From positions 1 to 23,441 of IMG/VR virus record IMGVR_UViG_3300013137_000098: a stretch of 23,441 nt of DNA. One strand, 5' to 3'. Under the pieces are notes generated by a model that was not told the origin of the DNA, made no database searches, and was given only the letters and a program-made list of their open reading frames with translations. Positions 2,758 through 23,231 of the stretch are shown here, one piece after another. This DNA comes from a virus. A program made the translations under genes and the position numbers. Position 1 is the stretch's first letter; each line of letters starts with the position of its first letter.

Positions 2758-4548
2758 TTATTCTGGTTCACATTCTGTTGCTGCACTTAATGTTGAACCA
2801 TTCCAATATCTTTCCATTGACTTGTTTGACCAATAGCCAACATCTGCTACGGTATTACAACCAGCACCAACATATAATTTAGTTGCTGTTGCAAAGGTTG
2901 CTGTATCTGTGCTCATGCTATTTGGTATATTGGATTCACAAGCAAGCGTTTCCACGGTACTATAATATAAAGTTTGTGAATAGCAAGAAAGTACCGTTGT
3001 AGTTGTAGTTGTTGTATAACTTATATTATCCATAACTATATTATATCTTTTTATATTATTTAATAATTCTTCTATTGAAGGTTCTGTTCCATCTACAAGG
3101 TCTATTCTTGGATATACTGCTTGCATATGTAAGGTGGATTGATAAGGCATCATAACACGCATATAAACACCTGTGGTAGAACCACTTGAATAATAATTAT
3201 AAATGCTTGTATAGTCAGTTCCTCCTGTTAAATTATATATTTTTGGTACTAAACTTGAATTAAAACTAAATGGTGATGTTGTTGATGGTAATAAATAACC
3301 AACACATAATTTCCATTCATTTAACTGGAAATAAGTTTCTACTGGTGATAATGCTGGTAAAAAATAATAACTATTTGATATACCAGTTGTTGATAAATTA
3401 GTATGAAATGAAAAATCAGCACTTACTCCTTTTCTTGGATTGTAGCCAAAATAATATCTATTTGCTATACTTTGACCAGTTAAAACCAATCTATTCCATA
3501 TTGAAAAACGATAAGTTTTAGTGTTATCAATTAAAATACCTTCAGCGGGGCCTGTGCTTTGAAATCCGGCTGTTGCATCACTAGTATTACCAAAACCCTC
3601 CCATATAATAGAATTATTATTAAATGGATCAGTTCCTAAAAATCTATAATTAGTTGAATTAGAAGTATATTGTGTAAATGATGTAGTTAAATCTGCTGCG
3701 GTTGAACCAGTTGTACCATCAATCCAACTTGATAAATCTAACATATTAGTATTCTGTTCATATGAAACTAATTTGTTATCTTTTTCAGCTTTTAATAATT
3801 GTGCTATTGATGGTTCTGTTCCATCTACAAGGTCTATTCTTGGATATAAAAAACATCCTGATACGGATGTGCCTGATGGTACATTAAAAGGTGTTGATGC
3901 TCTTATACCAACATTATATGTATCACTTATCATTATATAATCTCTTATGGTCATTCCAGTTGTAAGTTTAGTGCCATTTGGTTGATAAACACCAGTATTA
4001 GTATGTAATGTTGTTCCTGTTGGTGTTGTATATGGTCTCAAATGAGCAACACATAAACGCCATTCATTTTCAGGAAATATAACATTTGTTTGTGTTGGTG
4101 ATGTTAAAATTGGATAAGGATTATTTGTCGTTGAATATGTTGGTGTTGCTATAATTGAGTTTCTGCTGGTTATACCACTCATTGCCCATAAACCAAAATA
4201 TACATATCCTTGTCCAGCAACTACATTTTTTCTTTTAATCCAGCAAGAAAATCTATAAGTTTTTGTCTTATCTACAGGTACTAATTGATATGAATTCGCG
4301 GCTGCAGTTATATTAAATCCACCATATACATTTCCAGATTGTGTATTTCCTGATAATGCTCTCCAACATACAGATTGAATACCCCAAGGATCCGTTTCTA
4401 AAACTCTTTCATTTAAAGTATTATTTAAACTATATTGATTCCAAAATGAAGGAGATGGACCAGTACCATTAGTTGAACCTGTTGTTCCAGTAATCCAAGT
4501 TGAATAATCAATTAAATTAGTATCTTTATTTAAAAATAATTTATTCAT
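2758..4548 (-). CDS. Adhesin with duplicated beta-sandwich, Thr linker and Cys/Tyr-rich module
   Basis: The product is 596 residues. Residues about 6-255 and 265-505 are two divergent copies of one domain. Both begin with NTN(L/M)(I/L)D, contain KTYRFSxW and NEW(R/K)LCV, and end in YPRIDLVDGTEPSI followed by a short Lys-rich helix. This Tyr/Trp-rich, Ser/Thr-rich pattern resembles carbohydrate-binding beta-sandwich domains of phage fibres. A linker of seven threonines (about 511-518) then joins a Cys-containing C-terminal module with KLYVGAGC and RYWNG, related to modules in the gene at 13864-14931. The start codon overlaps the stop of the large fibre gene in ATGA, so the two are translationally coupled and may form one fibre complex. 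Host glycan binding is inferred. Confidence 0.65.
   Translation of the reverse strand: MNKLFLNKDTNLIDYSTWITGTTGSTNGTGPSPSFWNQYSLNNTLNERVLETDPWGIQSVCWRALSGNTQSGNVYGGFNITAAANSYQLVPVDKTKTYRFSCWIKRKNVVAGQGYVYFGLWAMSGITSRNSIIATPTYSTTNNPYPILTSPTQTNVIFPENEWRLCVAHLRPYTTPTGTTLHTNTGVYQPNGTKLTTGMTIRDYIMISDTYNVGIRASTPFNVPSGTSVSGCFLYPRIDLVDGTEPSIAQLLKAEKDNKLVSYEQNTNMLDLSSWIDGTTGSTAADLTTSFTQYTSNSTNYRFLGTDPFNNNSIIWEGFGNTSDATAGFQSTGPAEGILIDNTKTYRFSIWNRLVLTGQSIANRYYFGYNPRKGVSADFSFHTNLSTTGISNSYYFLPALSPVETYFQLNEWKLCVGYLLPSTTSPFSFNSSLVPKIYNLTGGTDYTSIYNYYSSGSTTGVYMRVMMPYQSTLHMQAVYPRIDLVDGTEPSIEELLNNIKRYNIVMDNISYTTTTTTTVLSCYSQTLYYSTVETLACESNIPNSMSTDTATFATATKLYVGAGCNTVADVGYWSNKSMERYWNGSTLSAATECEPE
3071..3848 (-). 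repeat. Direct DNA repeat marking the domain duplication in the adhesin gene
   Basis: The plus-strand stretch beginning CTATTGAAGGTTCTGTTCC near 3072 recurs near 3803 as CTATTGATGGTTCTGTTCC, and the match continues for roughly 45 bases. Both copies encode the end of the beta-sandwich domain (PRIDLVDGTEPSI). The rest of the two domains is much more diverged, so this tract is either under strong constraint or has been homogenised by recombination. Confidence 0.7.
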
Positions 4549-7500
4549 AATCTACTATCTATTAACCAATTTAAGTTAGTAATTTTTATACTTTCTGATG
4601 CTGCTGCTTTGAAATATAATTCAAAGTAATCATTTTGTATAACATCACTTATATACACATTAGTTCCAAAGTTAAAATCTCTTGCGTTTGTATCTAATGT
4701 TATAATTCCATATCCATAAGTAGTTCCAGTTAAACCATTCTTAACTATTGCATATTCTAATGATGATAATTGTGTTGATGTTTGCATCGTTCCATTTAAC
4801 CACATCATTAAATCTTTTTCATGTGTAGGTAAGAAAGTAATTCTATTACCTGAATAAGTAAACTTTTTATAATAACTGTTAGCACTTGGGCCATAAACTG
4901 CTTTAGTCCAATTTGTAGTTACTGATGTAACACCAGTTGATGATATAACATTTAATTTAGCGTGTGGGTTTTGACTTTCTTGTCCAACATTATTTATCAT
5001 TACAATATCAGCATCTCTAGCTATTGTAAAATCAAATCCACTTTTAAATGTTCCAACATTATTCCAAATTGCACCTTCTATAGCAAACTCACTATAAGTT
5101 GTGGCTGAACCAACATAATTTATAAATGTTTGTGCTGAATGTGTTAATTCAGTTGTATCACCTTGGCTTGAAAGGTACATATTTGTTCCACCTGAAAGTA
5201 TATTTATACCTTTATAAAGTGGATATTTACTTTGTGCTGAATAATCAGTAAAACTGGATCTATATTTAGCACCTACAGCACCAGTATTTAATTCAAAACC
5301 ACTGGTTATGCAATCGTTTATTTGACTTTCAAATACCCAAAACTCTCCATTATTTGTTGATACTAAACCTTTATCAAAATCACAAATTGTAGTATCTTTA
5401 ATTTCATAATACTTATCAGCTGTTGCACATCTTATACCAGTTGTAGTTCCTGTTGCAGTTCCACCACTTAATATAAGTTTAGTAAATGAAACATCACTTT
5501 GACAAGTAAACATAGGTTGGTTACTCATACCACTTGCTGCAGTTAAATAAGATTGTGCGTAACCACCTGAAGTAATTGTTAATTGATAAGGTAAGTTTAT
5601 TGTAATACCTGAATTAATACTTTCATTGTCAGCTGTTAAAACTAATGTAGTTGCTCCTGACATATTTCCTTGTAGCCAAGTTAAACTGGTTACTAAGTTT
5701 GGAAATTGTGAAAGTGGATCACCAATAAATATATAATATGGAAAACCAAGAGGTCCATATGTTCCACCTATTGCACCAGTTACAAATAAGTTTGGTGTAT
5801 AAAGTGTGCTATTTGAATAATATAATTCATTTAAAGTTGTTCCTGATATACCTGAGGTTCCAGATGATCCAGAAGTTCCATTAGTTCCTGAACTACCTGA
5901 GGTTCCATTTGTTCCTGAACTACCTGATGTTCCATTTGTTCCTGAACTACCTGAGGTTCCATTTATTCCTGAACTACCTGAAGTTCCATTAGTTCCTGAA
6001 GTTCCATTAACACCACTTGAACCACTTGAACCTGAAGTTCCATTAGTTCCACTTGAACCGCTTGTTCCACTTGAACCACTTGTTCCATTAGTTCCACTTG
6101 AACCTGAGGTTCCATTTGTACCTGAAGTTCCATTAACACCACTTGTACCACTTGATCCAGATGTTCCATTAGTTCCTGAAGTTCCATTAACACCACTTGT
6201 ACCACTTGAACCTGAGGTTCCATTTGTACCTGAAGTTCCATCAACACCACTTGTTCCATTAGTTCCTGAAGTTCCATTAACACCACTTGATCCAGATGTT
6301 CCATTAGTTCCTGAAGTTCCATTAACACCACTTGAACCACTTGAACCTGAAGTTCCATCAGTTCCCGAACTACCATTATCACCATTTACACCACTTGAAC
6401 CTGATGAACCTGATGTTCCACTTGTTCCTGATGAACCAGATGAACCAGATGTTCCACTTGAACCAGATGAACCAGAAGTACCATTTACTCCTGAACTACC
6501 TGATGAACCTGATGAACCACTACTACCATTAACACCGGAAGTACCATTAGTTCCTGATGTACCATCTATACCAGAAGTACCATCAGCTCCTGAAGTACCA
6601 TCAGTTCCTGAAGTACCATTATCACCATTTACTCCAGATGTACCAGATGATCCTGATGTACCAGATGATCCTGATGTACCATTTTCACCACTTGTACCAC
6701 TTGATCCAGATGTACCATTTTCACCATTTACACCACTTGTACCACTTGTACCACTTGAACCTGAACTACCTGAAGTACCATTATCACCATTTACACCACT
6801 TGAACCACTTGAACCTGATGTACCATCAACACCGGATGTACCATCAGTTCCTGATGTACCATTTACACCACTTGTTCCTGATGAACCACTTGAACCAACA
6901 AACTCACCATCTTTACCACTTGTTCCTGATGAACCACTTGTTCCATTATCACCATTCACACCACTTGATCCTGATGTACCATCAGTTCCTGATGTGCCAC
7001 TATCACCATTTACACCACTTGTTCCTGATGAACCACTTGTTCCATTATTACCATTTACACCGCTTGTTCCTGATGAACCACTTGTTCCATTATCACCATT
7101 TACTCCTGATGTACCAGATGAACCTGATGTTCCATCAACTCCTGATGTACCATTATCACCATTCACACCACTTGAACCAGATGAACCATTTGTACCATCA
7201 GTTCCAGTTGCTCCATCTTTACCACTTGTTCCACTTGAGCCTGATGCACCATCAATACCTGATGTTCCATCAGTTCCAGCTGCACCATTTACTCCAGATG
7301 AACCTGAACTACCTGATGTACCATCAATTCCAGAAGTACCATCAATACCTGATGAACCAGATGAACCTGATGTTCCATTATCACCATTTACACCACTTGA
7401 ACCACTTGATCCATTAACACCAGATGTTCCATTAGTTCCAGCTTCACCATTTATACCTGACGAACCAGATGTACCATCAGTTCCAGCTGCACCATTTACT

Positions 7501-7889
7501 CCAGATGAACCAGATGAGCCAGAATTACCTGATGTTCCTGAACTACCTGATGAACCAGATACACCATTTATACCTGAACTACCTGATGTTCCATCAACTC
7601 CTGATGTTCCATCAATTCCTGATGTTCCATCAATTCCTGATGTTCCATCAATTCCTGATGTTCCATTAACACCACTTGTACCTGAACTACCAGATGATCC
7701 AGATGTTCCATCTATACCAGATGTTCCATTATATGTAAGGCCAGTCCAATAAGTTAAACCATCACCAATTTTAAACTGGTCCAAATCTAAATCTACACCT
7801 ACTTCACCTTGTGCTAATATAGGATTATATTGTTCCCAATTTGCGGTTGTATCTCTTCTTAATTGAAGTTGTGCATTTATTGTGCTCAT
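4545..7889 (-). CDS. Long collagen-like tail fibre with beta-helix C-terminal region
   Basis: The product is 1114 residues. Residues 1-54 (containing NAQLQLRRDTTANWEQYNP, then LAQGEVG and FKIGDG) match the N-terminal domain common in phage fibres and named after the major tropism determinant, which attaches the fibre to the virion. Residues 55-683 are about 209 Gly-X-Y triplets built from GTS, GSS, GVN, GTD, GTN, GID and GDN, with a single interruption, GEFV, near residue 330. Residues about 690-960 are rich in short Gly/Thr/Ser strands with spaced hydrophobics and resemble a right-handed beta-helix. The last 150 residues look like a compact beta domain, perhaps a receptor-binding tip. No proline occurs in the triplets. 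It overlaps the next gene by four bases (ATGA). Confidence 0.82.
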   Translation of the reverse strand: MSTINAQLQLRRDTTANWEQYNPILAQGEVGVDLDLDQFKIGDGLTYWTGLTYNGTSGIDGTSGSSGSSGTSGVNGTSGIDGTSGIDGTSGIDGTSGVDGTSGSSGINGVSGSSGSSGTSGNSGSSGSSGVNGAAGTDGTSGSSGINGEAGTNGTSGVNGSSGSSGVNGDNGTSGSSGSSGIDGTSGIDGTSGSSGSSGVNGAAGTDGTSGIDGASGSSGTSGKDGATGTDGTNGSSGSSGVNGDNGTSGVDGTSGSSGTSGVNGDNGTSGSSGTSGVNGNNGTSGSSGTSGVNGDSGTSGTDGTSGSSGVNGDNGTSGSSGTSGKDGEFVGSSGSSGTSGVNGTSGTDGTSGVDGTSGSSGSSGVNGDNGTSGSSGSSGTSGTSGVNGENGTSGSSGTSGENGTSGSSGTSGSSGTSGVNGDNGTSGTDGTSGADGTSGIDGTSGTNGTSGVNGSSGSSGSSGSSGVNGTSGSSGSSGTSGSSGSSGTSGTSGSSGSSGVNGDNGSSGTDGTSGSSGSSGVNGTSGTNGTSGSSGVNGTSGTNGTSGVDGTSGTNGTSGSSGTSGVNGTSGTNGTSGSSGTSGVNGTSGTNGTSGSSGTNGTSGSSGTSGSSGTNGTSGSSGSSGVNGTSGTNGTSGSSGINGTSGSSGTNGTSGSSGTNGTSGSSGTNGTSGSSGTSGISGTTLNELYYSNSTLYTPNLFVTGAIGGTYGPLGFPYYIFIGDPLSQFPNLVTSLTWLQGNMSGATTLVLTADNESINSGITINLPYQLTITSGGYAQSYLTAASGMSNQPMFTCQSDVSFTKLILSGGTATGTTTGIRCATADKYYEIKDTTICDFDKGLVSTNNGEFWVFESQINDCITSGFELNTGAVGAKYRSSFTDYSAQSKYPLYKGINILSGGTNMYLSSQGDTTELTHSAQTFINYVGSATTYSEFAIEGAIWNNVGTFKSGFDFTIARDADIVMINNVGQESQNPHAKLNVISSTGVTSVTTNWTKAVYGPSANSYYKKFTYSGNRITFLPTHEKDLMMWLNGTMQTSTQLSSLEYAIVKNGLTGTTYGYGIITLDTNARDFNFGTNVYISDVIQNDYFELYFKAAASESIKITNLNWLIDSRL
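5841..7727 (-). repeat. Collagen-like 9-bp-periodic repeat tract
   Basis: About 1.9 kb of near-periodic DNA encodes the Gly-X-Y rod of the large fibre. The base unit is 9 bp, and higher-order units of 18-45 bp recur, such as the blocks for GTSGSSGTSGVNGDNG. The same words occur in the tracts at about 150-416 and 23312-23414. Because every unit is a multiple of 9 bp, recombination between units can change fibre length without frameshift. The tract also keeps long antisense frames open on the plus strand; those are artefacts of composition. Confidence 0.9.
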
Positions 7890-7904
7890 TATTCTTAATT
7901 TTTT

Positions 7905-8348
7905 TTATATATATTTACCATCTATTATAGTATCACCGACACTACTCGCTGAACCACAATCAATCAATAATTCACCAACATAACTTGCTGAACCAAAATC
8001 ATAAATAACAATAGTAGTTGGTTTAAATGTTCTAAATGAATAAGTTCTATCTAATTTTATAAATGGTGCATCTAACCTTGATGTTTCACCTGAAAAAGAC
8101 TGTAATAAAAGATGTGCTGCTAAATAATAATTTCCTTCATATAAATAATAGGATTTATAAGTAAAAATTGTATTATTCTGAAAGTCATAAGTTAATCCAG
8201 TGTGATTTATTTTACCGTCATAACCTACAATATGTGTTATACCACTACTTACAATTCTTGAAGCATGATCTAATATTTCATATTTATCAATCTGTGTTTG
8301 TCTTGTATAATATGTTAATGAATTATCACCATTAAATACCGTTATCAT
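7905..8348 (-). CDS. Virion-associated protein of unknown function, paralogue B
   Basis: The product is 147 residues and has no family I recognise. It is a paralogue of the gene just before it: both share LTY-TR-T-IDKYEILDH, IFTYKSYYLY or LFTYKSYFLY, YYLAAHLLLQSFSGET and LDAPF. This copy has an extra C-terminal tail with its own short repeat, DFGSASYVGELLID followed by DCGSASSVGDTIID. Its start overlaps the stop of paralogue A in ATGA. Lying between the tail tube gene and the fibre gene, the pair could be structural proteins that attach or decorate fibres, but this is inferred from position alone. Confidence 0.7.
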   Translation of the reverse strand: MITVFNGDNSLTYYTRQTQIDKYEILDHASRIVSSGITHIVGYDGKINHTGLTYDFQNNTIFTYKSYYLYEGNYYLAAHLLLQSFSGETSRLDAPFIKLDRTYSFRTFKPTTIVIYDFGSASYVGELLIDCGSASSVGDTIIDGKYI

Positions 8349-8458
8349 ATTCTTCTATCTTTATTTCTATAAGTTCTACTAACTTTCTTGAATGGTGCAT
8401 CTAACATTGATGTTTCACCTGAAAAAGACTGTAATAAAAGATGTGCTGCTAAATAATA
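8062..8458 (-). repeat. 68-bp near-identical tract shared by the two paralogues
   Basis: Bases 8062-8129 and 8391-8458 are identical except at one position (8076 against 8405). They encode the shared APF and YYLAAHLLLQSFSGET regions. The flanking parts of the two genes are clearly more diverged, which suggests gene conversion or very strong local constraint after tandem duplication. Confidence 0.85.
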
Positions 8459-8683
8459 CTCACCTCTATATAAAAAATATGACTTATAAGTGAATAAATT
8501 ATTTTCTGGAAATGTATATGATAAACCAGAATGTGTTATTAAACCATTAGTCCATCCAAATATATTAGTAGTTCCACTATTTAATAACCTATTTTCATGG
8601 TCTAATATTTCATATTTATCAATATGTGTATATCTTGTGTGATAAGTTAATGAATTATTTGGTATATTTGGTTCTACAACCAT
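8345..8683 (-). CDS. Virion-associated protein of unknown function, paralogue A
   Basis: The product is 112 residues. It shares most of its length with the following gene (paralogue B) but ends shortly after LDAPFKKVSRTYR in a basic tail (NKDRRI) and lacks the GSAS repeat of B. It is the first gene after the terminator at 8740-8763, and a copy of the bipartite motif sits 16 bases before its ATG, so it probably begins a transcription unit that continues through the fibre, adhesin and portal genes. No catalytic motif, signal peptide or membrane segment is visible. Confidence 0.7.
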   Translation of the reverse strand: MVVEPNIPNNSLTYHTRYTHIDKYEILDHENRLLNSGTTNIFGWTNGLITHSGLSYTFPENNLFTYKSYFLYRGEYYLAAHLLLQSFSGETSMLDAPFKKVSRTYRNKDRRI

Positions 8684-8699
8684 CTTTTTTCTTTTTATT

Positions 8700-8726
8700 A
8701 AAAAGTAAAAAAATGTCTTTTTTGAT
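8700..8726 (-). promoter_or_regulatory. Bipartite motif copy 2 (possible late promoter)
   Basis: On the minus strand ATCAAA (8726-8721) is followed after 13 bases by TACTTTTT (8707-8700) and then AATAAAAAG. The ATG of paralogue A is 16 bases downstream of TACTTTTT. The element lies directly after an intrinsic terminator, the order expected for the end of one transcription unit and the start of the next. The TACTTTTT half resembles the Bacteroidota -7 consensus TAnnTTTG except for the last base. Confidence 0.45.
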
Positions 8727-8739
8727 TTTTTAAAAATAA

Positions 8740-10927: not shown

Positions 10928-10947
10928 AATGATTTTTTATTTTTATT

Positions 10948-10974
10948 AAAAAGTAATATAATTACTATTTTGAT
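10948..10974 (-). promoter_or_regulatory. Bipartite motif copy 3 (possible late promoter)
   Basis: On the minus strand ATCAAA (10974-10969) is followed after 13 bases by TACTTTTT (10955-10948) and AATAAAAAT. The scaffold ATG is 20 bases downstream. The element lies in the 78-base gap between the protease and scaffold genes. It would drive the scaffold, capsid and tail tube genes. Confidence 0.45.
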
Positions 10975-11005
10975 TGGTTTTCATTTATATCAATTTGATA
11001 ATAAA

Positions 11006-11875
11006 CTATTTACGCCATTTATCAAATGGATTTTTAACTGCTGTTTTAGTTACTTTTTCTAATTTACATTTACAAGCATCTTCACAATAAGTGGAATATG
11101 GTCCAGGACTAAATGTTAAAGTAATACCTGCTACAACATCACCATTTTTTGCACCTGGTATTCCAGTTGTAATCCATTCACTTAATTTTTTTACTTGGTT
11201 ATCTCTACTTTCACAAATAGGACAATTTTTATCTGCTTTATTTGTTTTCCAAGTATAATAACTATCTAAATCCGATGCTGGATATGTTATTGTTAAATAT
11301 ATTTCTCTAAACTCCTTATCTAAATCTTCATGTTCTTCGTGCTCACACATATGAACTTCCTTTTTACTGAAATTACCTTCTAAACTAAATCCTTTTAATA
11401 CTCCAGTTTCAATATATTCGTTCCATAAATCATCATCAGTAATTTTATAACTTGCCATCCAGGATCCAGCAGGTAAATTAAACCCTAAATAAGTGGATTT
11501 ATCTTTTTCTGGATCTTCAACAATCCAACTTTCAACTAAATAAACTTTACTAATAGGAAATTGATGTTGTAATGTTACATTATCTTTATTTCCATTTATT
11601 ATAAAGTTCTCACTTATTTTTCTTATTGTATCTTTTCTAAATACGATATTAAAACCTTTTCTTGGTATAACTTGGTCTGTTACTAAAATAGGTCCAGTTA
11701 CAATTTTTTTCTTTTCATCTATAATTTTACCTAATTTTAATTCTATTTTCATAGTATTATCTTCTGATAATAATACATAATCTTCTTGAATTGCTGGACT
11801 ATCTACTAATGATATTGCAAATACTGCATCAGTTAATTCATTTTCAATAAGCATTTCATATGTTGGTATTTCCAT
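11006..11875 (-). CDS. Prohead protease (XkdF-like) with Cys-rich C-terminal extension
   Basis: The product is 289 residues. The N-terminal 175 residues follow the XkdF-like putative serine protease pattern: ISLVDSPAI at 21-29, then GPILVTDQVIPR, then TLQHQ with candidate catalytic His104, then AGSWMASYKITDDDLWN and GVLKGFSLEG with candidate Ser164. These proteases clear the scaffold and mature the prohead. The C-terminal 80 residues are unusual: CPIC at 218-221 and CEDACKC at 264-270 give a CxxC...CxxxCxC set. This recalls the Cys pattern at the end of Mu gpF/SPP1 gp7-type minor head proteins, for which no separate gene is seen here. Metal binding is likely. The gene lies directly before the scaffold gene, as expected. 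Confidence 0.78.
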   Translation of the reverse strand: MEIPTYEMLIENELTDAVFAISLVDSPAIQEDYVLLSEDNTMKIELKLGKIIDEKKKIVTGPILVTDQVIPRKGFNIVFRKDTIRKISENFIINGNKDNVTLQHQFPISKVYLVESWIVEDPEKDKSTYLGFNLPAGSWMASYKITDDDLWNEYIETGVLKGFSLEGNFSKKEVHMCEHEEHEDLDKEFREIYLTITYPASDLDSYYTWKTNKADKNCPICESRDNQVKKLSEWITTGIPGAKNGDVVAGITLTFSPGPYSTYCEDACKCKLEKVTKTAVKNPFDKWRK

Positions 11876-11894
11876 TTTGATAATTTATTTTAAT

Positions 11895-11922
11895 AAAAAG
11901 TATTTTTAATATACTTTTTGAT
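11895..11922 (-). promoter_or_regulatory. Bipartite motif copy 4 (possible late promoter) overlapping an AT-rich hairpin
   Basis: On the minus strand ATCAAA (11922-11917) is followed after 14 bases by TACTTTTT (11902-11895) and ATTAAAA. The protease ATG is 19 bases downstream, and the motif begins right after the tape measure stop codon. The same bases form a 9-bp AT-only inverted repeat (11895-11903 with 11911-11919), so a weak terminator cannot be excluded for this copy. Confidence 0.42.
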
Positions 11923-13863: not shown

Positions 13864-14931
13864 TTATCCATTACAATTAAATACTTCACCTAATTCTTGA
13901 TTATTTGAATCCCAATATCTAACATACAAGCCATCTGAGTAAAAACCAATTGGTGCAGTTACAGAACAATTTGAACCATTTATATATAACTTACTTGATA
14001 ATGATAATGATGTATTATTCATATCAATAGTTGTTGGTGACGATACAAAGCAAGCACCAGTCCAAGAAGTTTCTGAATAACTTAATGATGCTTCAATACA
14101 ACCAGTAGTTGTTGTGGTCGTAGTTGCAGGACAAGAATATAAATCTGATACTTGACCTACATTACTTATTCTTGCTGCATAAAAACTTGTTAAAAATTGT
14201 AATTTATAAAAATCTCCATTTCCTACAAATGGTGTGGACATATTAGTATCAGTATATAATACTGGTGATGTTGTTAAATCAGTTTTTGAATATAAATAAT
14301 CAGATCCTGATGGACCAGCACAAGCCAATAAATTAGTTGAATAAGTGCTGTCATTTTTAAGACAGAACCAAACTGGACCTGAATAAGGTGTAGTTGTAGT
14401 AGTTGTAGTTGGTGAAGGCGTAGTTGTTGTGGTTGATACTGGTGGATCTGGTGGAACTACAGCACAATTAGCTGCAACACCTAAAGTTTCAACACCACTG
14501 TCCCAATATCTAACTATAGTTCCATCACTATAATAACCATTAGCAGCTGTTACTAAACAAGAAGAATTATGAATATATAATTTTGTTGAAGTTGCCAAAT
14601 TAAGATTATTCATATCAACTGGGCTTTCTGATGCTGAACAAGCAGTATATTGTGTAGATGAATATCTTAAACTATTTGTAGTTACACAACCGGTTGTAGT
14701 TGTAGTAGTTGTTGCCGGCATAGTTAAAGTTATTGAATTAGTGCAAGTTCCAACAGATGTTATTGTTACTGATGTAGCTGTATCATCAACCGTTGCTAAT
14801 TGTCCTAATAACAATTGTGTTTTTGTTGAAGTTACTGGAACTACTGTTCCTATATCAGCAGTAAGGTTAAAGTTTGGTCCTAAATTAGCACCTAAACCTC
14901 CACTTAATGTTATTATTATACTTTTACTCAT
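13864..14931 (-). CDS. Multi-module virion surface protein with Thr linkers
   Basis: The product is 355 residues in five clear parts. Residues 1-71 form an N-terminal domain (IIITLSGGLGANLGPNFNLT, then a VTSVGTCTNSITL-like end) of a type seen at the N-terminus of tail or surface proteins of environmental phages. Three Thr-only or Thr/Pro linkers at about 72-80, 162-181 and 268-275 separate three modules of 75-85 residues. Modules 1 and 3 are clear repeats: each has a first Cys, a Tyr/Ser-rich start, (S/T)KLYI, an xxC, GYYSDG or GFYSDG, RYWDS and a final Cys. Module 2 is a distant relative or a different domain. A related module ends the adhesin at 2758-4548. The role is probably surface adhesion; disulfides are likely. 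Confidence 0.65.
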   Translation of the reverse strand: MSKSIIITLSGGLGANLGPNFNLTADIGTVVPVTSTKTQLLLGQLATVDDTATSVTITSVGTCTNSITLTMPATTTTTTTGCVTTNSLRYSSTQYTACSASESPVDMNNLNLATSTKLYIHNSSCLVTAANGYYSDGTIVRYWDSGVETLGVAANCAVVPPDPPVSTTTTTPSPTTTTTTTPYSGPVWFCLKNDSTYSTNLLACAGPSGSDYLYSKTDLTTSPVLYTDTNMSTPFVGNGDFYKLQFLTSFYAARISNVGQVSDLYSCPATTTTTTTGCIEASLSYSETSWTGACFVSSPTTIDMNNTSLSLSSKLYINGSNCSVTAPIGFYSDGLYVRYWDSNNQELGEVFNCNG

Positions 14932-14947: not shown

Positions 14948-17200
14948 TTAAGTCATTTCACATAATTTAGCAGTTCCAGGACCAGCCCATTTAGTTACAA
15001 AAACTCTTGATCCTACAAACAATATTTCATTTGGTGTAAATCCACTTTCTAATTTATAAACAGCTACACTATCTGGTGTAGAAACACTAAACTTCTCAAT
15101 ATAACCACTTATTTTACAACTATATATATTAGTTCCATTTAAGAATAAACCATAAGTTTCACTAATAGTTAATGGTGTAATTGAATTGTTATTTGCTAAA
15201 TCCACAATTATACAACCACCCAATTCACTACCTATATATAATTTATTACTATAATAAACCATATCATCAGTTAAAGTATTTGTATAACTTGAAAGATCCA
15301 CAATTGTATAAGTCCAAATATCATCAGCATCTAAAATTGCTAATTTTTCAGTAGTTCCTTGTGAAGTTAAATATACTTCATTTCTTGTTGCGCTATAAGC
15401 CGCAGCATGTGTTGATGTAAAATCATTATAAAACTTAGCTTTCTGAATAAGTTCCCAATCACTAATTCTAATTTTAAAGAACTCATAATCAGTTCCACCA
15501 TAAATATATGTTCCATCCGTAGTTATAGCAAAGTTCCATACATCAATTGTTGGATATGTATGTTTTGTAAATGTTAAATCTGTTCCACATTCAACTATAA
15601 CTAAATAACCTGTTGTAGTTTCAATAGTTCCAAAATACATAGTGCTTCCTGATGAACATACATTTTCTAAACCAATATATTCATTTCCAACATCACTTAC
15701 CGTTACTCCTGTATATGAATTCAAATCATCTGGATCATCAAACTTAATTATATATGGGTTTTGTTTCCTTTCACCAATAAACATCATACCATCTACTGTA
15801 ATTGATGAATGTGCATATTCAAATATATTCGTAGCTGAACAACTTAATGATGCTAGAGCAGTTGTAGTTGTTGTAGTTATATTTGAAGTTGTAGTTGTTG
15901 TAGTTAATACCGTGGTTGAAGTAGTTGTAGTTGTATTTCCTGTTGTTGAGGTTAAACCTGCTAAAAAATATTTTTTACCAGCAACAGTTATACTTTCAAC
16001 ATCTGACAAACCTTCTAATATATATTCTTCTATATTATTTCTATCTGAGAAATCTAAATTAGTTTGTCCAGTGTAAGGTGATATATTCATAAGTGTCTTA
16101 ATTCTATCAATTCTACAACAAATAGCAGTCGTATAATTATCTACTGGCGTTCCAGTCCAAGGATTATTTACAGTTCCTGAAATAAGTCCAGCAAGAACTA
16201 AACCTATAATCTTTTTAGTTCCTGAACCATCAACATCAGCATAAACAACTGAACCACTATCTCCTGGATTAACAGGTAAATAACATAAACCACCTGAACC
16301 ATCAGTTGCTACCATAGTAAATAAGTCATTATAATTTACGCTTACATAAGAATAACTTATTGTATTAGCATAAAAAATTGAACTTAATTTCATTTTAGTC
16401 CTACCTTCACCTTTTGAACCAGTTGTCCTACCAGCAGCATAAAGGTTATAATCGTTTTCTAATATATTATTTATTTCATCAGTTGAAGCCCATAACATAC
16501 CTGCTGTATAACCAGTTAAACCTTCTATTTTCCAACTTTGTGAATTATCAATGTCTGTGTCATCAATAGTACATAACGCACAATCAATAAAATTATCAGT
16601 TGCTCCAGTTCTCCAAGGTTTAAATCTTTTAATAGCACCTATATAATCAGTTCCACCATCACCACTTGCTGGTTGAACTATCAAATTATTTTTAGTATTA
16701 TCAATAGTTCCAGTAGTTCTATATGGTGCTAATAATGCATTATTTACAATCACATGTGCATTTGAAACACCAACTAATGTATTATCTTCATTATCTACCG
16801 CTAAAAAACCTAATGTACCTGTTGAAGTTGGCATATTTGTATAATTGGTACAAGAAATACCACCTTTTAATGGTCTAATTTGGTCTCTATTTGTTGGTTC
16901 TACTGGTGTTGGGTATTGTGGCATCCATTGGTAAAACTCATCATAACACCAATCCATTAATGGTCTTATTTCACCTTCAATAACATCAGTATTATAAGTT
17001 TTTCCTTCGTGTTTAATAGTTTTTAGTATTCTTTTTCCTTCTGGTATTTGGTCTATTGGTAATTTCTTTTTTACTGTATAGGTTATACCAATTTCTTTAG
17101 TTAAAATTCCATTTTTAATTTTTCTACCAATTCCTACACCAATTACATTATCATCAGTCTCTATTAATTGTTTGCTTGTTAATTTATTTAAATCTTTCAT
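14948..17200 (-). CDS. Trypsin-like serine peptidase fused to a probable beta-propeller
   Basis: The product is 750 residues. Residues about 17-60 (DNVIGVGIGRKIKNG, later YTVKKKLP) are the N-terminal pro-domain-like segment that precedes many bacterial and phage trypsin-fold peptidases of the Nal1-like type. The catalytic triad is visible: His149 in VGVSNAHV, Asp206 in FIDCAL, and Ser315 in NPGDSGS. A Thr-rich linker (about 420-448) then joins about 300 residues with repeated hydrophobic/Gly/Tyr strands (TDGTYIYGGTDYEFFKI, NKLYIGSELGGCIIVDL, NGTNIYSCKISGYIEKF), which look like blades of a beta-propeller. It sits among baseplate genes with 1-base to 16-base gaps, so it is probably a virion tail-tip enzyme that cleaves a host surface protein or matures tail proteins. 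No signal peptide is seen. Confidence 0.8.
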   Translation of the reverse strand: MKDLNKLTSKQLIETDDNVIGVGIGRKIKNGILTKEIGITYTVKKKLPIDQIPEGKRILKTIKHEGKTYNTDVIEGEIRPLMDWCYDEFYQWMPQYPTPVEPTNRDQIRPLKGGISCTNYTNMPTSTGTLGFLAVDNEDNTLVGVSNAHVIVNNALLAPYRTTGTIDNTKNNLIVQPASGDGGTDYIGAIKRFKPWRTGATDNFIDCALCTIDDTDIDNSQSWKIEGLTGYTAGMLWASTDEINNILENDYNLYAAGRTTGSKGEGRTKMKLSSIFYANTISYSYVSVNYNDLFTMVATDGSGGLCYLPVNPGDSGSVVYADVDGSGTKKIIGLVLAGLISGTVNNPWTGTPVDNYTTAICCRIDRIKTLMNISPYTGQTNLDFSDRNNIEEYILEGLSDVESITVAGKKYFLAGLTSTTGNTTTTTSTTVLTTTTTTSNITTTTTTALASLSCSATNIFEYAHSSITVDGMMFIGERKQNPYIIKFDDPDDLNSYTGVTVSDVGNEYIGLENVCSSGSTMYFGTIETTTGYLVIVECGTDLTFTKHTYPTIDVWNFAITTDGTYIYGGTDYEFFKIRISDWELIQKAKFYNDFTSTHAAAYSATRNEVYLTSQGTTEKLAILDADDIWTYTIVDLSSYTNTLTDDMVYYSNKLYIGSELGGCIIVDLANNNSITPLTISETYGLFLNGTNIYSCKISGYIEKFSVSTPDSVAVYKLESGFTPNEILFVGSRVFVTKWAGPGTAKLCEMT

Positions 17201-17201: not shown

Positions 17202-19643
17202 TTATTCTGATATTTTTTGTATATAAATGTATGAGGTATTTCTAACTGCTGGATTTGTAGTTGAAGTTGTTGTAGTAGTTGGTTCAGATGTAGTTGAAGT
17301 AGTTGTGGTTGTTGGACCAGCAGTTGTAGTTGTAGTTGTTATTGGTTCAGATGTAGTAGTTGTTGTTGTAGTAGTTGGTTCAGATGTAGTTGAAGTAGTT
17401 GTTGTTGTTGAACCAGCCCAAGTAATTTCACCACCAGTATATTCACAACCTTCTGGTTGGATTTCTATATTTCCACCATTAAAATCACAAACACTGGTTG
17501 GTGTATAATCATTTGATGGTATAGCCATAGTTAATAATTTAATTTTGGCGTAACCATTTTTTATATTACTTCTAATTTCTAATATTTCATACCATATATT
17601 ATGAACTACTATTTTATCCGATACTTTAATTGTATATAATATATTTGATGGTAATATAAAATCTAATGTAGTTTCATATTTAATTGATACATTATCTTTT
17701 ATAGCATTTGGAAACTTCGTATAATCTAACGAATATCCATTTGGTCCATCAGGTCCATAATCCGAAGCATAACACATACCTGAATAAGATGTTAAGCCAC
17801 TTTGTAAATTATAATATTCTGCAGTTAATCCTGATACAATTGGTAATCTATATAATAATAAAAATGGTGTATTAATAGGTTCTAAACTTTCGTTCAATTC
17901 ACTATGTAATGGAATTGTAGTATCCTCTAATATAACATTATTATTATCTGTTTTATTTAATGTAGTCCTTGGAAATACGGTGAATAAACTTTTAAATTCT
18001 AATTTTTCTTCACCATTATCATATGAATAATATACTCGGCTTTGTCCATAACTCAATCCATTTGAACCAATCTCAGGCTGTAAATCATCTTGCGCTTGTC
18101 GCCATGCTATATTATTAATATCTTTACCTTCTGCGAATTGATAATCAATTAGTTTATATTTTTGGTTGTGGTTCCAAGTATAATCTTTATCTTTTATAAA
18201 GTATTCACTTAAGTCATATATAGTTGAAGGTATTTCACTTTTAAAATAAGTATTTACTATTTTTGTATTACTATTATATTCAAAAAATATATTAAACGAC
18301 TTACAAAATTGTATAAAAAAATCACTTTTATACATATCAGGGAAATTGATAGTAATTTTACTATAATCATAAGTTGGATCTGTTAAAAGTGTAAGTTTTA
18401 ATGTTGATATTAATTGGTCGTTATTAAAATATCCATATTTAGTTTCCCAAGATGTTCCATTCCAATATTCATATTCAATACTTACTAAAAATTGAAGTTG
18501 TTGTCCTACCGTTAAGTTTATTAATGAAATTGTATTTTCAGAATTAACATCTATATAAGCATGTTGCACTAATGCGCCTGTATCATATCTAATTACATAT
18601 AATGAATATCCAACGATATTTTCATATTGTGTTGGTGGGTTTATTAATGTCATATCTAACTTTAAACTAATAGGTGTTGAAGGTATAGTGTAGTAATTAT
18701 TTGATAATGTATAAGTTTCTATATTATCCCATGAAGTTAAGTCAGTATTCCCTTCCATTATACCACCATCTGAACCACCACCAGGTGATAATTTTAATTT
18801 ATTACAAGTAATAGGCGTTCCTGGAACTATAACCGTAGTAATTTGTCTGGTATAATCACCTCTTGCTGTTGTATAAATATAAGTTAAACTATTAGTATAT
18901 TCTGTTTTTGTATTTGGCATCAAAAATAATTCATCTAAAAAAGATGAAACTTCTGTGCTCGGTGAATGTGTGATAGTATTTGGTGTAAAAAGTTTATCAA
19001 TTATATCACCTAATTTATATGAAACTGATAAATCTGTCATTTTTACACCACCAGTATCAGCCATAACTCTTGCTATATTACCTTCTTGTTGTGTATCTCT
19101 AAAGTTTAATGGTCTTTTATTAGCCATTATTGGTACAAAAATATCACCAGCCGCCCAACTTCCAGTCACATTTCCTATATTAAAAGTAAATGACATATCA
19201 GTAAGGTCTATATTATTCAATTTTGGTGTCTCAGAAGTATTTAATTCTTTAATTAAATCCTTTTCTTGTCCATAAAATACTAAGTTATAAGCATATTTAT
19301 ACATTTTTTTAATTGAAAAACCTTGAACCTGTATATTACCTAATATTTCATATTCATTAATAACTATTTTTGCTGGCATAAAGTATGCTGGATTTAATCT
19401 TTCATTACTTGATGATATTGAAGTTGAATTAACAAGGGTTCCACCAATTTCATCATAATATTTAAATATTTCAGCATTATTATCATCTATTGGAACTGAA
19501 AAACTTGTTGAATATGAACCATAACCAGTTATAATTTGTTGGTTATTCCAATTTCTGGTTAATTCTATTTCTTCATCACCAAATAAACTTACTTTATGTT
19601 CAACATAAGATCCACTAACTAATGTTTTTACGAATAGTTCCAT
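17202..19643 (-). CDS. Baseplate / tail-tip hub protein with C-terminal Thr linker
   Basis: The product is 813 residues. The first 140 residues (SLFGDEEIELTRNW, then YGSYSTSFSVPIDDNNAEIF, then PAYFMPAKIVIN and GNIQVQGF) match the start of large tail proteins in Bacteroidota siphoviruses: a domain with a STSFSxPxxxxNxxIF signature after a short strand-rich lead. The middle part is strand-rich and includes a domain around DMYKSDFFIQFCKSFNIFFE, the type expected of Tal/gp27-like hub proteins. Residues about 743-797 are a long Thr linker with SEP, AGP and NP spacers, and only 17 residues follow, ending QKISE. It lies directly after the 425-residue baseplate gene (its ATG begins the base before that stop). 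The Thr stalk may hold a small terminal tag or a partner protein. Confidence 0.68.
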   Translation of the reverse strand: MELFVKTLVSGSYVEHKVSLFGDEEIELTRNWNNQQIITGYGSYSTSFSVPIDDNNAEIFKYYDEIGGTLVNSTSISSSNERLNPAYFMPAKIVINEYEILGNIQVQGFSIKKMYKYAYNLVFYGQEKDLIKELNTSETPKLNNIDLTDMSFTFNIGNVTGSWAAGDIFVPIMANKRPLNFRDTQQEGNIARVMADTGGVKMTDLSVSYKLGDIIDKLFTPNTITHSPSTEVSSFLDELFLMPNTKTEYTNSLTYIYTTARGDYTRQITTVIVPGTPITCNKLKLSPGGGSDGGIMEGNTDLTSWDNIETYTLSNNYYTIPSTPISLKLDMTLINPPTQYENIVGYSLYVIRYDTGALVQHAYIDVNSENTISLINLTVGQQLQFLVSIEYEYWNGTSWETKYGYFNNDQLISTLKLTLLTDPTYDYSKITINFPDMYKSDFFIQFCKSFNIFFEYNSNTKIVNTYFKSEIPSTIYDLSEYFIKDKDYTWNHNQKYKLIDYQFAEGKDINNIAWRQAQDDLQPEIGSNGLSYGQSRVYYSYDNGEEKLEFKSLFTVFPRTTLNKTDNNNVILEDTTIPLHSELNESLEPINTPFLLLYRLPIVSGLTAEYYNLQSGLTSYSGMCYASDYGPDGPNGYSLDYTKFPNAIKDNVSIKYETTLDFILPSNILYTIKVSDKIVVHNIWYEILEIRSNIKNGYAKIKLLTMAIPSNDYTPTSVCDFNGGNIEIQPEGCEYTGGEITWAGSTTTTTSTTSEPTTTTTTTTSEPITTTTTTAGPTTTTTSTTSEPTTTTTSTTNPAVRNTSYIYIQKISE
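17254..17414 (-). repeat. Threonine-linker repeat tract in the hub gene
   Basis: This tract of ACA/ACT codons with short spacers repeats units of about 33-60 bp, such as the blocks for SEPTTTTTT. A 41-base segment (17299-17339) is identical to 22819-22859 in another gene more than 5 kb away. Equivalent shorter tracts lie at about 2990-3016, 14105-14128, 14388-14445, 14691-14718, 15859-15945, 20322-20337, 20862-20915, 22440-22466 and 22785-22892. Confidence 0.85.
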
Positions 19644-20921
19644 TTATTTTACATTATTTATTCTATCGTAGCCAGCTTCTAAGGTCACAATATAATTTAT
19701 CATCCTATCATATCTATTTGTTTTATACATCATTTCTTTATCGGTTACGATATATGGTTTACCATAAATCCATACATATTCACTTAAAAATAGTTGTTCT
19801 AATTTCAAATTATAATCTTCATCAATCCAACCTGTATTTAAAACCAGTTTAATTCTTCCAGTTGTAAATAATTTATGATAAGATCCAGATGCTGAATTAT
19901 AAGTCGCTGTTAAATAATTAACCTTATCATATTTATATGTTTCATATTCAATAGTATCATATGTAGTTACACGACCTATAAAATATATTGTATCAACAAC
20001 ACCATTTATATTTATAAAATCTACTGGATATAAATCTTCTAAACAAGGATAAGGATATAACATATAAGTTGATAATATCGTTGAATTATTCATTATTCTT
20101 AATTTAATTGGTTGTGTTTGGTCTATATCTGTGTGTAAATGTGTTGTGATAATATCATAATAACCACACGCTATTTCTTTCATAGTATTTGTTGAAGCAT
20201 TTGAACCTGCGGTCCAAGCCGTAGTAAAACTAACCTCATTTGTTAATGGATCTGGTATTGGTAATGCCATCGGAACTATTAAACTTGCTGGTCCTGGACT
20301 TTCTGGTGCTAATGTAGTTGTAGTTGTTGTTAAACTTGTGTATGATATTTTATATCCAGTGCTATCACCTGAAATATATTTATATTTCATAATATAATTC
20401 AAAAATGTAGGTATTCTAATTTCAGTAGTATCTGGTATATAACTTAACATATATTCACCGGTTTCAACATCATCATTAAATCCACCAGTTGCATCATTTA
20501 TATATCCTAAACTTGCTACCGATATATTTGTTGATGTTTCTTTATTTATAACACCTGATGCATACTCTACAAGTTTAGCAGTAAAATATATAAAATAATT
20601 TCCACTATAAGTTATATTATAATTATTTTTTAAATAACTTCTAAGTAGTGATGATGCATCTACAAATATACAACCATTAGTATCTGGTGTCCTATCAATA
20701 GAAGCATAAATTGTGGTTAAATCTGAAGTTAAACCAGTCGTGCAATATAATACAAACTTATATGTATATAGTGTTGAACTACAATTCTTAAAAGCATATA
20801 TAACTGGACTTCTTGCATATACTATATCATCTGAATATAAATATGGCTGCGACACTATTACTTGTGTAGTAGTAGTAGTTGTCGTAGTTGATGATGTAGT
20901 AGTTGTTGTTGTATCTGGCAT
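19644..20921 (-). CDS. Baseplate protein (distal-tail-like) with N-terminal and internal Thr linkers
   Basis: The product is 425 residues. It begins with a Thr/Ser run (residues 4-18), then a beta-rich domain starting PYLYSDDIVYARSPVIYAFK, which resembles the N-terminal beta-sandwich of Bacteroidota phage baseplate proteins. A second Thr run with LAPESPGP at about 195-207 splits the protein. The C-terminal segment (NTGWIDEDYNLKLEQLFLSE, then VWIYGKPYIVTDKEMMYKTN) matches the end of this family: a W-(I/M)-(N/D)-E motif, LE-LFxS, then K-R-D-(R/K)-hydrophobic strands. It precedes the hub gene as Dit precedes Tal in other siphophages, which supports a distal-tail role. A poly-Thr run at the extreme N-terminus of a phage protein is odd and may mark insertion of a linker next to a start codon. 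Confidence 0.65.
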   Translation of the reverse strand: MPDTTTTTTSSTTTTTTTTQVIVSQPYLYSDDIVYARSPVIYAFKNCSSTLYTYKFVLYCTTGLTSDLTTIYASIDRTPDTNGCIFVDASSLLRSYLKNNYNITYSGNYFIYFTAKLVEYASGVINKETSTNISVASLGYINDATGGFNDDVETGEYMLSYIPDTTEIRIPTFLNYIMKYKYISGDSTGYKISYTSLTTTTTTLAPESPGPASLIVPMALPIPDPLTNEVSFTTAWTAGSNASTNTMKEIACGYYDIITTHLHTDIDQTQPIKLRIMNNSTILSTYMLYPYPCLEDLYPVDFININGVVDTIYFIGRVTTYDTIEYETYKYDKVNYLTATYNSASGSYHKLFTTGRIKLVLNTGWIDEDYNLKLEQLFLSEYVWIYGKPYIVTDKEMMYKTNRYDRMINYIVTLEAGYDRINNVK

Positions 20922-20936
20922 TTTATTATATTATTT

Positions 20937-21209: not shown

Positions 21210-21229
21210 AATTTTTCTTTATTTTTCAT

Positions 21230-21247
21230 AAACTCTTCTGCGAGTTT
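21230..21247. other. Short hairpin after the tail completion gene
   Basis: A 6-bp stem pairs 21230-21235 (AAACTC) with 21242-21247 (GAGTTT) around a 6-base loop, directly after the gp10-like stop codon. On the plus strand it continues into TTTTT-like sequence, on the minus strand into ATGAAAAATAAAG. It is weak as a terminator in the direction of the genes. Confidence 0.3.
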
Positions 21248-21248
21248 T

Positions 21249-21689: not shown

Positions 21690-22409
21690 TTTTCTTACTT
21701 AGTATTTTTTCCAATTTTATTTTATCTACTATAAAACTTAACCATATTAAAACTTCACCTATTCGTTTTTCAAGGATAATGTCCTGACGGGTGATATCTC
21801 CATTACATAATTCATATATCCAAGGAAACCATCCATATATTTTTCCAAACTCTGCTTCTTCTCTCCATCTAAACCCATCTCCATTAAAGATTGATGGGTA
21901 TAATTTATGAATGCGCTCTGTATATTCAAAAAAAAACTTATAAAACCATAATAAACATCTAATGTTAATTCTTCTTTTAATAATTCATAATGTGATATGT
22001 CTGCTTTATATTTTTCTATTGTATATTTTCTAAATAATTTCTTTTTAATAGGTCTATATAAAATTGCTATTTGTTTAATAATATCATCAGTATCACAATC
22101 CACTAATTCACCAAATGTCATATCATCAAAGTTTGGATTTATACCATATTTTTTATCACCTAATTTGAATATAGGAACCAGTGGTTTATCCATCATAAAT
22201 ATATTTTCTATAATTTTATACATATCTAATAAAGTATTAAATGGTATTTGGTTAAAAACCTGGTCATCTATACCATAAAATATACAAATTGTATTTTTTA
22301 ATAGTAATTGTTCATCATTTTTTTGCTCATCAGTTAAACTATTTAAAAATTTTTGATATTCTAAATAATTTTTTACTTTAATATCACTTAATTTTCTTGG
22401 TATTTTCAT
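21664..22409 (-). CDS. Tail assembly chaperone, full-length form by -1 frameshift
   Basis: The zero frame runs from ATG at 22409 to TAG at 21759 (216 residues). The -1 frame stays open through TAG at 21664-21666 and reads far more like a conserved protein: after the shift at 21930-21936 it gives FEYTERIHKLYPSIFNGDGF, then GWFPWIYELCNGDITRQD, then EVLIWLSFIVDK and ends GGGSK. The GWxxxIYxxxNGDIT...WLSF pattern is that of C-terminal parts of tail assembly proteins in Bacteroidota phages. The combined product would be 248 residues: 160 zero-frame residues plus 88. Tail assembly chaperones of many siphophages are made as short and long forms by such shifts. Here the long form overlaps the next gene by 26 bases. 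A sequencing loss of one T from a T10 run would give the same picture. Confidence 0.68.
21930..21936 (-). promoter_or_regulatory. Slippery heptamer T_TTT_TTT for -1 frameshifting
   Basis: Nine consecutive T on the minus strand (21936-21928) include a canonical X_XXY_YYZ heptamer in correct phase: codons 158-161 are AGT TTT TTT TTG. Slipping back one base gives TTT GAA, which enters the open -1 frame. The -1 frame opens about 12 codons upstream of this site, so the site lies exactly in the permitted overlap. No strong downstream stem-loop is visible; long U runs can act without one and can also cause polymerase slippage. Confidence 0.6.
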
Positions 22410-22428
22410 ATTATTTATTTTTTTAAGG

Positions 22429-22450
22429 TGCTAATGTGGTGCTAATGTGG
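22429..22450. repeat. 11-bp perfect tandem duplication at the 3' end of the Thr-linker gene
   Basis: TGCTAATGTGG occurs twice in a row (22429-22439 and 22440-22450). The stop codon of the Cys-rich protein lies in the first copy. With one copy only, the frame would end TLAP then TAA, so the duplication changes the last residue but not the general point at which the protein ends. Confidence 0.8.
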
Positions 22451-23231
22451 TTGTAGTTGTTGTTGTTGGACAAGATATAGTATATATATTAGTAATTGCT
22501 CCACTTGCATCTATTAAAACTATTCTATCATTTGCTGATTTAATTAAGAAATCAGGTGCATATAAATAATAACCTGTTGAAGCAGTATGACAAGCATGAG
22601 ATCCAGTTATTGCTTCATAAGGTTTATCACCAACAGTTGGAGTTGAATTAGCAGTATAATAAACCAAACCTGCTGAACTTGTAGGACTTCCACAATATTG
22701 ATTTAAAATTGCTTGTTGTGATGTAGTTATATTAACACCATTTATCTCATGATATAATGTATAATACTGCGTTCCTGTGCAAGTAGTTGTAGTTGTTGAT
22801 GTTATATTTGTAGTTGTTGTAGTTGTGGTTGTTGGACCAGCAGTTGTAGTTGTAGTTGTCTCAGGACTTGTCGTAGTTGTTGTTGTAGTTGGTGGACAAG
22901 CCTCTGAACAAGTATCATAAGGACCAGTTAATGTAAATACACCATCTGCGCCTGTTCCACCGGTACTTTTAATATAAAAAACTATATTTTGATTATTTAC
23001 TTTATAATATTTTGATAATGTTAAATTACCAAAAACCTCAAGTTCCATTTCAGGTGGTTCACCATCACAAGCACAAGTATAATAGTCAGCAATATAAAAA
23101 TTATCTGGCCACCATTGCTTCCAATAAGAACCTGTATATATCCATCCTTCCACAATTGATTTCCATCCATCAACATAGACATTCACATCTATAACATTTT
23201 TCCAATCTGTAATATATATATTTGCTGACAT
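22431..23231 (-). CDS. Cys-rich virion surface protein with Thr linkers
   Basis: The product is 266 residues. The N-terminus holds three short Trp-centred strands (YITDWKNVIDVNVYVDGWKS, then WIYTGSYWKQWWPD), like the repeated VNGxWK units at the N-termini of some phage structural proteins. A domain with CAC and CSEAC follows, then a Thr linker (about 113-150), then a second domain bounded by Cys residues (CTGTQYYTLYHEI to YTISCP), then a second Thr run at the extreme C-terminus ending LAPH. Ending in a linker suggests that a further C-terminal module has been lost. The ATG overlaps the stop of the preceding collagen-like gene by one base. It is probably an exposed fibre or baseplate accessory; no enzymatic motif is seen. 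Confidence 0.62.
   Translation of the reverse strand: MSANIYITDWKNVIDVNVYVDGWKSIVEGWIYTGSYWKQWWPDNFYIADYYTCACDGEPPEMELEVFGNLTLSKYYKVNNQNIVFYIKSTGGTGADGVFTLTGPYDTCSEACPPTTTTTTTSPETTTTTTAGPTTTTTTTTNITSTTTTTCTGTQYYTLYHEINGVNITTSQQAILNQYCGSPTSSAGLVYYTANSTPTVGDKPYEAITGSHACHTASTGYYLYAPDFLIKSANDRIVLIDASGAITNIYTISCPTTTTTTTLAPH

Follow-up and report, generated by a model that had tools for sequence, protein, structure and literature searches.

Here, we present an analysis of threonine (Thr)-rich tracts in the virus record IMGVR_UViG_3300013137_000098 of IMG/VR, of which positions 1 to 23,441 were analyzed (23,441 bases; hereafter, the window). The tracts lie in six open reading frames (ORFs) of the minus strand, i.e., 2758, 13864, 14948, 17202, 19644, and 22431. 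An initial annotation had described Thr linkers in these six genes; all six ORFs exist, and the tracts were confirmed in each of them, including those beside the start codon of 19644 (M-P-D-T...) and beside the stop codon of 22431 (...TTTTTTTLAPH-stop). The minus-strand genes also include a portal gene, the product of which is 29% identical to that of Nonlabens phage P12024S, and the phage relatives of the window portal are from Nonlabens phages only. P12024S is a cultured tailed phage with a marine bacterium, recorded as Persicivirga, as its host, and has tblastn matches to window genes 821, 1361, 8802, 9414, 10358, 11006, and 21759. Because the portal and these seven genes have counterparts in P12024S, the window is distantly related to a tailed phage in culture. 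Judging from their neighborhood, where a tape-measure candidate (11923) lies on one side and a tail candidate (17202) on the other, and from their relatives, the products of the Thr-tract genes are probably virion proteins.

Thr tracts, anchors, and heads in the window

There is one tract in gene 2758, and there are three in 13864; 14948 has three runs grouped in a cluster, and 17202 also has one cluster; 19644 has tracts at residues 4-19 and 198-203, while 22431 has a cluster at residues 115-150 and a tract at residues 256-262 (Table 1). The longest Thr run in the six genes comprises 6-8 residues, a length reached in 0-3 of 1000 shuffled versions of the respective protein, and the 14 other ORFs among the 20 tested have no Thr run above 3. 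The proposal that the tracts nearly always mark domain borders is borne out for at least four genes (13864, 14948, 17202, and 19644); the internal tract of 19644 (residues 198-203) is at most a putative border.

In gene 13864 (13864-14931), an anchor is followed by three heads, each preceded by a tract. Relatives of this gene align over about residues 1-73 only and end before the tract at residue 74. The anchor has no Pfam family and is predicted with good confidence to be a small beta-sandwich, possibly of an immunoglobulin (Ig)/fibronectin type III (FN3)-like kind. Among the matches listed in structure searches, no PDB entry was below E 1 (best E 1.2), and the best VIA Z was 6.4; the fold resembles those of four Virus NIOZ-UU157 proteins, which are predicted structures in BFVD (TM 0.69-0.79). 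For head 2, there was no convincing PDB match among the matches listed (best E 0.98); its relatives are found on other anchors, including those of loci L076, L105, L080, L091, L048, and L110. Heads 1 and 3 and the head of 2758 make up family F25, members of which have so far been found in this window only. A near-identical relative of the window was not found, and within the window the modular design is seen by anatomy, i.e., from one head family present on both 13864 and 2758 and from a 41-bp copy shared by 17202 and 22431.

Compared with their relatives, 14948, 17202, and 19644 have extra parts at their ends, in keeping with the same design. The complete 422-residue protein encoded by L089:793-2061 (29% identity) aligns to residues 4-422 of 14948. 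The C-terminal head beyond this point had no family match in Pfam/PHROG-type scans and, by eye, may adopt a beta-propeller-like fold. Relatives of 17202 from L133, L142, and L177, which are complete proteins of 664 residues each, align to residues 1-704 or 13-704 and stop there, and the tract begins at residue 746. P12024S_45 also aligns to this core, and its own C-terminus has a weak BACON match (E 0.003, under the cut-off). The assignment of 17202 as a "major tail protein" (phrog_14018, residues 739-799) was rejected because the match sits on the low-complexity Thr tract. Between the core and the tract, residues 719-738 contain CxFxGG mini-repeats (CDFNGG...CEYTGG), a motif that also ends the 1196-residue gene L003:6375-9965, which has no Thr tract. 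In the case of 19644, relatives align from residue 33-38, and the N-terminal tract precedes the conserved part. The head of 22431 has no relative among the fetched loci. Genes 17202 and 14948 have no direct relatives in IMG/VR by single-sequence patterns, and genes 22431 and 13864 have none among 50,697 phage records.

The initial annotation had also raised the idea of mucin-like stalks, in which the Thr runs would be O-glycosylated and act as sugar-coated stalks. Their composition is in line with this idea. Using the O-glycosylation motif D[ST][AILVMT], we found one occurrence each in 2758, 14948, and 17202, two in 13864, and five in 19644, of which one is at the N-terminal tract; the remaining nine of these ten motifs are away from the tracts, and there are none in 22431. 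No glycosyltransferase was recognized among the ten window proteins scanned. Moreover, general O-glycosylation in Bacteroidota is periplasmic while assembly of tailed phages is cytoplasmic, which counts against glycosylated stalks. We consider this explanation highly improbable.

Table 1. Tracts, anchor, heads, and conserved parts of the six Thr-tract genes in the window
Feature	Position	Strand	Remark
Gene 2758 Thr tract	2995..3015	-	Sequence
Gene 2758 C-terminal head	2761..2994	-	F25, family of 13864 heads 1 and 3; 35% identical to head 1
Gene 13864 anchor, residues 1-73 (~72), predicted Ig/FN3-like beta-sandwich	14713..14931	-	Relatives in 29 IMG/VR loci; AlphaFold2 predicted local distance difference test (pLDDT) 86
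Gene 13864 Thr tract 1 (TTTTTTT)	14692..14712	-	Position kept in 26/29 and 80/80 anchor relatives
Gene 13864 head 1, Cys module (...VRYWDSG...)	14434..14691	-	53% identical to head 3; blastp family F25
Gene 13864 tract 2, Thr/Pro/Ser	14386..14433	-	Sequence
Gene 13864 head 2, Cys module (LYTD..TPF.GNGDFYK)	14125..14385	-	Relatives on other anchors; AlphaFold2 pLDDT 85
Gene 13864 Thr tract 3	14104..14124	-	Sequence
Gene 13864 head 3	13867..14103	-	53% identical to head 1; family F25
Gene 14948 trypsin-like protease part, residues 1-422	15935..17200	-	phrog_20754 protease, E 9.5e-23
Gene 14948 Thr tract cluster	15857..15934	-	Begins at residue 423, end of stand-alone relative
Gene 14948 C-terminal head, possibly beta-propeller-like (by eye)	14951..15856	-	Absent from L089:793-2061
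Gene 17202 conserved core, residues 1-704	17532..19643	-	664-residue relatives L133, L142, L177; P12024S_45
Gene 17202 C-terminal Thr/Ser/Glu-Pro tract array	17256..17408	-	Past end of relatives
41-bp stretch in gene 17202	17299..17339	-	Identical to 22819-22859; longest shared tract DNA; 0/200 synonymous resamplings
Gene 19644 N-terminal Thr tract, residues 4-19	20865..20912	-	Relatives start after tract
Gene 19644 internal Thr tract, residues 198-203	20313..20330	-	Sequence
Gene 22431 Thr tract cluster	22782..22889	-	Sequence
41-bp stretch in gene 22431	22819..22859	-	Identical to 17299-17339
Gene 22431 head	22467..22781	-	Flanked by two tracts
Gene 22431 C-terminal Thr tract	22446..22466	-	Sequence

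The anchor family and its heads in IMG/VR

Using a profile of the 13864 anchor, we identified 29 loci in IMG/VR (A-type); a homologous "GPF" anchor (B-type; hhalign probability 97%, E 8.7e-11) gave at least 400 matches, of which 80 were kept. The scan patterns excluded the tract itself. A Thr tract directly follows the anchor in 26/29 A-type and 80/80 B-type genes and, with the window included, in 107/110. The anchor family is a conserved N-terminal module in 110 genes. Among 76 unique tract-bearing proteins, 15 stop after the tract and are headless; the heads of the remaining 61 fall into 23 blastp clusters, three of which are common to both anchor types. In Pfam scans of nine proteins, the L066 head, which is on another gene, matched Fib_succ_major (E 1.3e-31), the L002 head matched a sortilin-like propeller just under the cut-off (E 2e-7), and the other seven had no Pfam family. 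Families of N-terminal modules were never found as heads in the cases of F0 (90/90), F2 (66/66), F4 (39/39), and F5 (23/23). Because head families were built by single linkage, these counts are rough, and F1 (68 members) merges several types, including the Fib_succ_major head of L066. The GPF anchor had no match among the 50,697 phage records, and neither anchor type was found in prokaryote genomes at pattern sensitivity; consequently, no host can be named through the anchors.

The anchor gene at 10001-10861 in L013, L014, and L015 has about ten TTTTTTTVAP-like units, the number of which varies between contigs that are ~98% identical, which suggests that the tracts undergo repeat slippage.

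In the window lineage, the relative L026 has matching genes in conserved order and a 17202 homologue without a tract. It also has two tandem genes with alike N-termini, followed by Thr tracts and then by differing heads, supporting a modular reading; one head in L026 is Gly-rich (PF21722, E 1.9e-4, under the cut-off). The Thr-tract gene L113:2832-4922, the N-terminus of which is similar to those of L026:6836 and L026:8273, has three near-identical CPCQTGVTI... heads in tandem and two others. Just downstream of the L026 anchor gene are 10944-11879, encoding a 311-residue protein without a Pfam match, and 11879-12412, encoding a methyltransferase (Methyltransf_11, E 2.9e-7); that their products modify the virion would be a guess.

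Head replacement, breakpoints, and tract DNA

In 25 pairs of anchor genes, the anchor DNA is at least 80% identical while the heads are unrelated. For instance, anchor DNA is 96% identical between L097 and L105, which have heads from different clusters. L074 and L088 share 93% identity on both sides of the head (5.1 kb preceding it, 0.9 kb following it); homology breaks off in the tract and returns at the gene end. In L073, L080, and L091, five adjacent or nearby genes each have their own constant N-terminus and variable heads, and these Thr-tract genes adjoin a gene with tail PHROGs.

To map breakpoints, every pair of loci sharing collinear DNA was used and repeated contexts were merged; replaced segments had to span 90 or more non-tract nt on both sides, and one-sided gaps, chains below 2.5 kb, and pairs that were at least 99.5% identical were left out. 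Among chains that are at least 90% identical, 34/35 left borders in Thr-tract genes are no more than 15 nt from a tract (23% expected). Of the right borders, 24/26, 80/85, and 318/340 at chain identities of at least 90%, 85%, and 75%, respectively, are at a tract or no more than 30 nt from the stop codon (24-27% expected; 27% in the closest set). Thr-tract genes account for 30% of the sequence yet contain 451/654 left borders, about five times the density elsewhere, an excess favored by the choice of loci around Thr-tract genes. Thus, the suggestion of the initial annotation of head swapping with the tracts as breakpoints is strongly supported in related phages, and the opposite pattern of fixed module order with breakpoints outside the tracts was not found. 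For the right breakpoint, the suggestion needs amending: this is usually the stop codon rather than a second tract, with just 6/26 at a tract in the closest set. Typically, then, the exchanged segment extends from a tract as far as the stop codon, in genomes that are otherwise 90-96% identical. An exchangeable C-terminal module was observed in the relatives, not in the window itself.

Based on these observations, it is very probable that the Thr tracts serve as flexible joints. On one side of the joint, a conserved part would remain with its gene, either as an anchor or as an entire protein with a structural or enzymatic function; on the other, small head domains, one or several per gene, would be gained, lost, and exchanged. 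The proteins are probably displayed on the virion, in the tail or fiber region, and the heads may bind host or environmental surfaces. The tract may accept in-frame junctions of any length, so that almost any recombination there would yield a working protein; selection would then retain useful heads.

Several observations weigh against this reading. Three of the 29 A-type anchors (L023, L024, and L028) have no tract, and family F3 is mixed, with 37 heads and 16 N-terminal modules. The share of left borders at tracts falls in looser chains, to 116/134 at 85% and 334/451 at 75% identity (22-23% expected across all three sets), and before merging contexts and dropping one-sided gaps, the count was 297/476 (median distance 0). 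Outside Thr-tract genes, there are 203/654 left and 197/537 right borders. In addition, the loci were fetched for holding anchors, and related loci are non-independent. The trait is not general in the window lineage; among 80 relatives sampled via gene 11006 and not via tracts, many of them short loci, just 2 have Thr-tract ORFs (2/40 among loci of at least 10 kb). The trait is, therefore, patchy in this lineage, which fits acquisition from outside, from putative donor lineages. Finally, of 68 distinct replaced head pairs in chains that are at least 85% identical, 23 retain blastp similarity, and part of the signal therefore reflects fast divergence and not exchange. In its general form, this alternative holds that the heads are orthologous and have evolved beyond recognition, the tract being merely a domain border. 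It sits poorly with the other 45 pairs, which have no similarity, with changes of head family within 93-96% identical genomes, with the same head DNA on unrelated genes, and with headless versions. We regard it as very unlikely as a general explanation.

Two further explanations concern the role of the tract in exchange by flexible joints. In the first, the tract DNA itself is the recombination site, short ACA/ACT-rich identities letting phage recombinases cross over with the heads as cassettes. The initial annotation had likewise considered the tracts to be the same ACA/ACT-rich DNA in different genes and a source of homology for recombination. In the window, Thr codons inside the tracts (ACA 69, ACT 59, ACC 7, ACG 6) are used as elsewhere (ACA 339, ACT 309, ACC 55, ACG 27), giving no sign of selection for DNA identity, and the resemblance between tracts is mainly due to the preference of the phage for ACA and ACT. 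In 12/15 pairs of window genes, identical tract DNA did not exceed synonymous resampling (P<=0.05), and two pairs were marginal, with 18 bp (P 0.025) and 21 bp (P 0.03). The likeness is, thus, mostly codon bias; the part that stands is the copy in 17202 and 22431, where 41 bp are identical while the maximum in 200 synonymous resamplings was 26. Similarly, tract DNA common to genes of one locus exceeded the codon null at P<=0.01 in 5/86 loci, i.e., L021 (58 nt), L027 (41), the window (41), L030 (26), and L088 (23), leaving 81/86 that did not.

Heads themselves have moved between genes. Among 270 modules, five head types recur, at a DNA identity of 75% or more, on genes with dissimilar N-terminal modules. 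Within the L013 genome, one head is present on both a 1284-residue gene (PHROG "virion structural protein") and the anchor gene, and the copy extends past the stop codon. Between L073 and L101, a head moved together with 24/24 nt of tract, in which the rare codons ACC and ACG are included; the 5' edge of the tract marks the end of the identity. The junction tract of L073 is a mosaic, with a 5' side as in its sister L091 and a 16-nt run in common with the donor gene in L080/L101. Recombination within tracts is best supported by such cases, yet they are few. Against a general role as recombination site, codon bias alone predicts identities of about 12-20 nt only, and the right borders are mainly stop codons. 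Altogether, tract DNA as a recombination site appears possible, though somewhat doubtful.

In the second explanation, the tracts are spacers only; illegitimate junctions would occur anywhere, and those in unfolded linkers would survive, with Thr as one of several suitable residues. Codon bias accounts for most of the similarity between tract DNAs, headless genes exist, and in other phages Gly-rich and collagen-like linkers have a similar part in the retrieved portions of two reports (PMC12892980, PMC9437275). The tract DNA copied between genes or carried along with heads does not fit this explanation, to which we give a slightly better than even chance. Extending exchange by flexible joints further, we tentatively speculate that head cassettes spread horizontally, with a shared anchor family, a common head pool in unrelated phages, and poly-Thr DNA as the site of insertion, deletion, and transfer between several anchored genes of one genome; on balance, we lean against this extension. 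If it is true, such a cassette system would give a combinatorial, rapidly reshuffled virion surface.

Gene 4545-7889, beside Thr-tract gene 2758, encodes a collagen-like protein (1114 residues; PF01391 match), the N-terminus of which matches Mtd_N (PF18454, E 2.3e-12) and which contains GxSG-type repeats in a long array; this repeat recurs at 149-478 and near the window end (about 23230-23420). Genes 7905-8348 and 8345-8683, which adjoin each other, are closely alike in sequence and have the appearance of a tandem duplication.

Relation to known modular systems

In open-access literature, preprints apart, we found no description of heads joined by Thr tracts; the Thr joint, the anchor family, and a head pool used by several genes and by unrelated phages appear to be undescribed in the literature searched. 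According to a remark in the part of PMC6821194 that was retrieved, recombination in two bacterial species may be influenced by poly-Thr tracts. Poly-Thr would provide a simple sequence mark for exchangeable surface modules in uncultivated, mostly unannotated phages, and comparison of close genomes makes the swapping of adhesive domains directly testable.

The design of anchor, linker, and exchangeable head is already known, and domain mosaicism of phage tail proteins is documented in the retrieved sections of PMC10684548 and PMC8262889. In T-even gp38 adhesins, a repeated low-complexity motif also frames exchangeable host-determining segments; as described in the available excerpt (PMC12892980), gp38 is one gene with a poly-glycine II sandwich and loops, whereas the Thr tracts described here separate entire domains and are found in many genes. 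The window tracts are Thr and not Gly, and glycine-rich motifs of the gp38 type were not found in them. The streptococcal phage Tal protein similarly has LEGO-like common-fold domains interspersed with repeated linkers (PMC9437275); the excerpt of that report describes collagen-like linkers and carbohydrate-binding modules and does not mention Thr tracts. Gly-X-Y repeats are absent from the six Thr-tract genes and present only in their neighbor 4545-7889. BACON/Ig-like arrays, as presented in the retrieved text of PMC6949934 and PMC13370021, are also small beta-sandwich domains in tail and adhesion proteins of gut Bacteroidota phages and are gained by transfer and duplication; that text does not mention a Thr tract, and the anchor and heads described here are other families.

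Modular receptor-binding proteins are similar in having a constant N-terminal part, a variable C-terminal part, and exchange among close relatives. Unlike them, the proteins described here mostly have small Cys-rich heads (about 60-110 residues) in strings of 0-4 or more, with several adjacent genes per genome, joints made of Thr tracts, and an anchor outside Pfam. In the usual view of phage adhesin evolution, exchange takes place in one or two fiber genes; in many of the phages described here, several anchor genes seem to operate in parallel and to draw on shared small heads through one type of joint.

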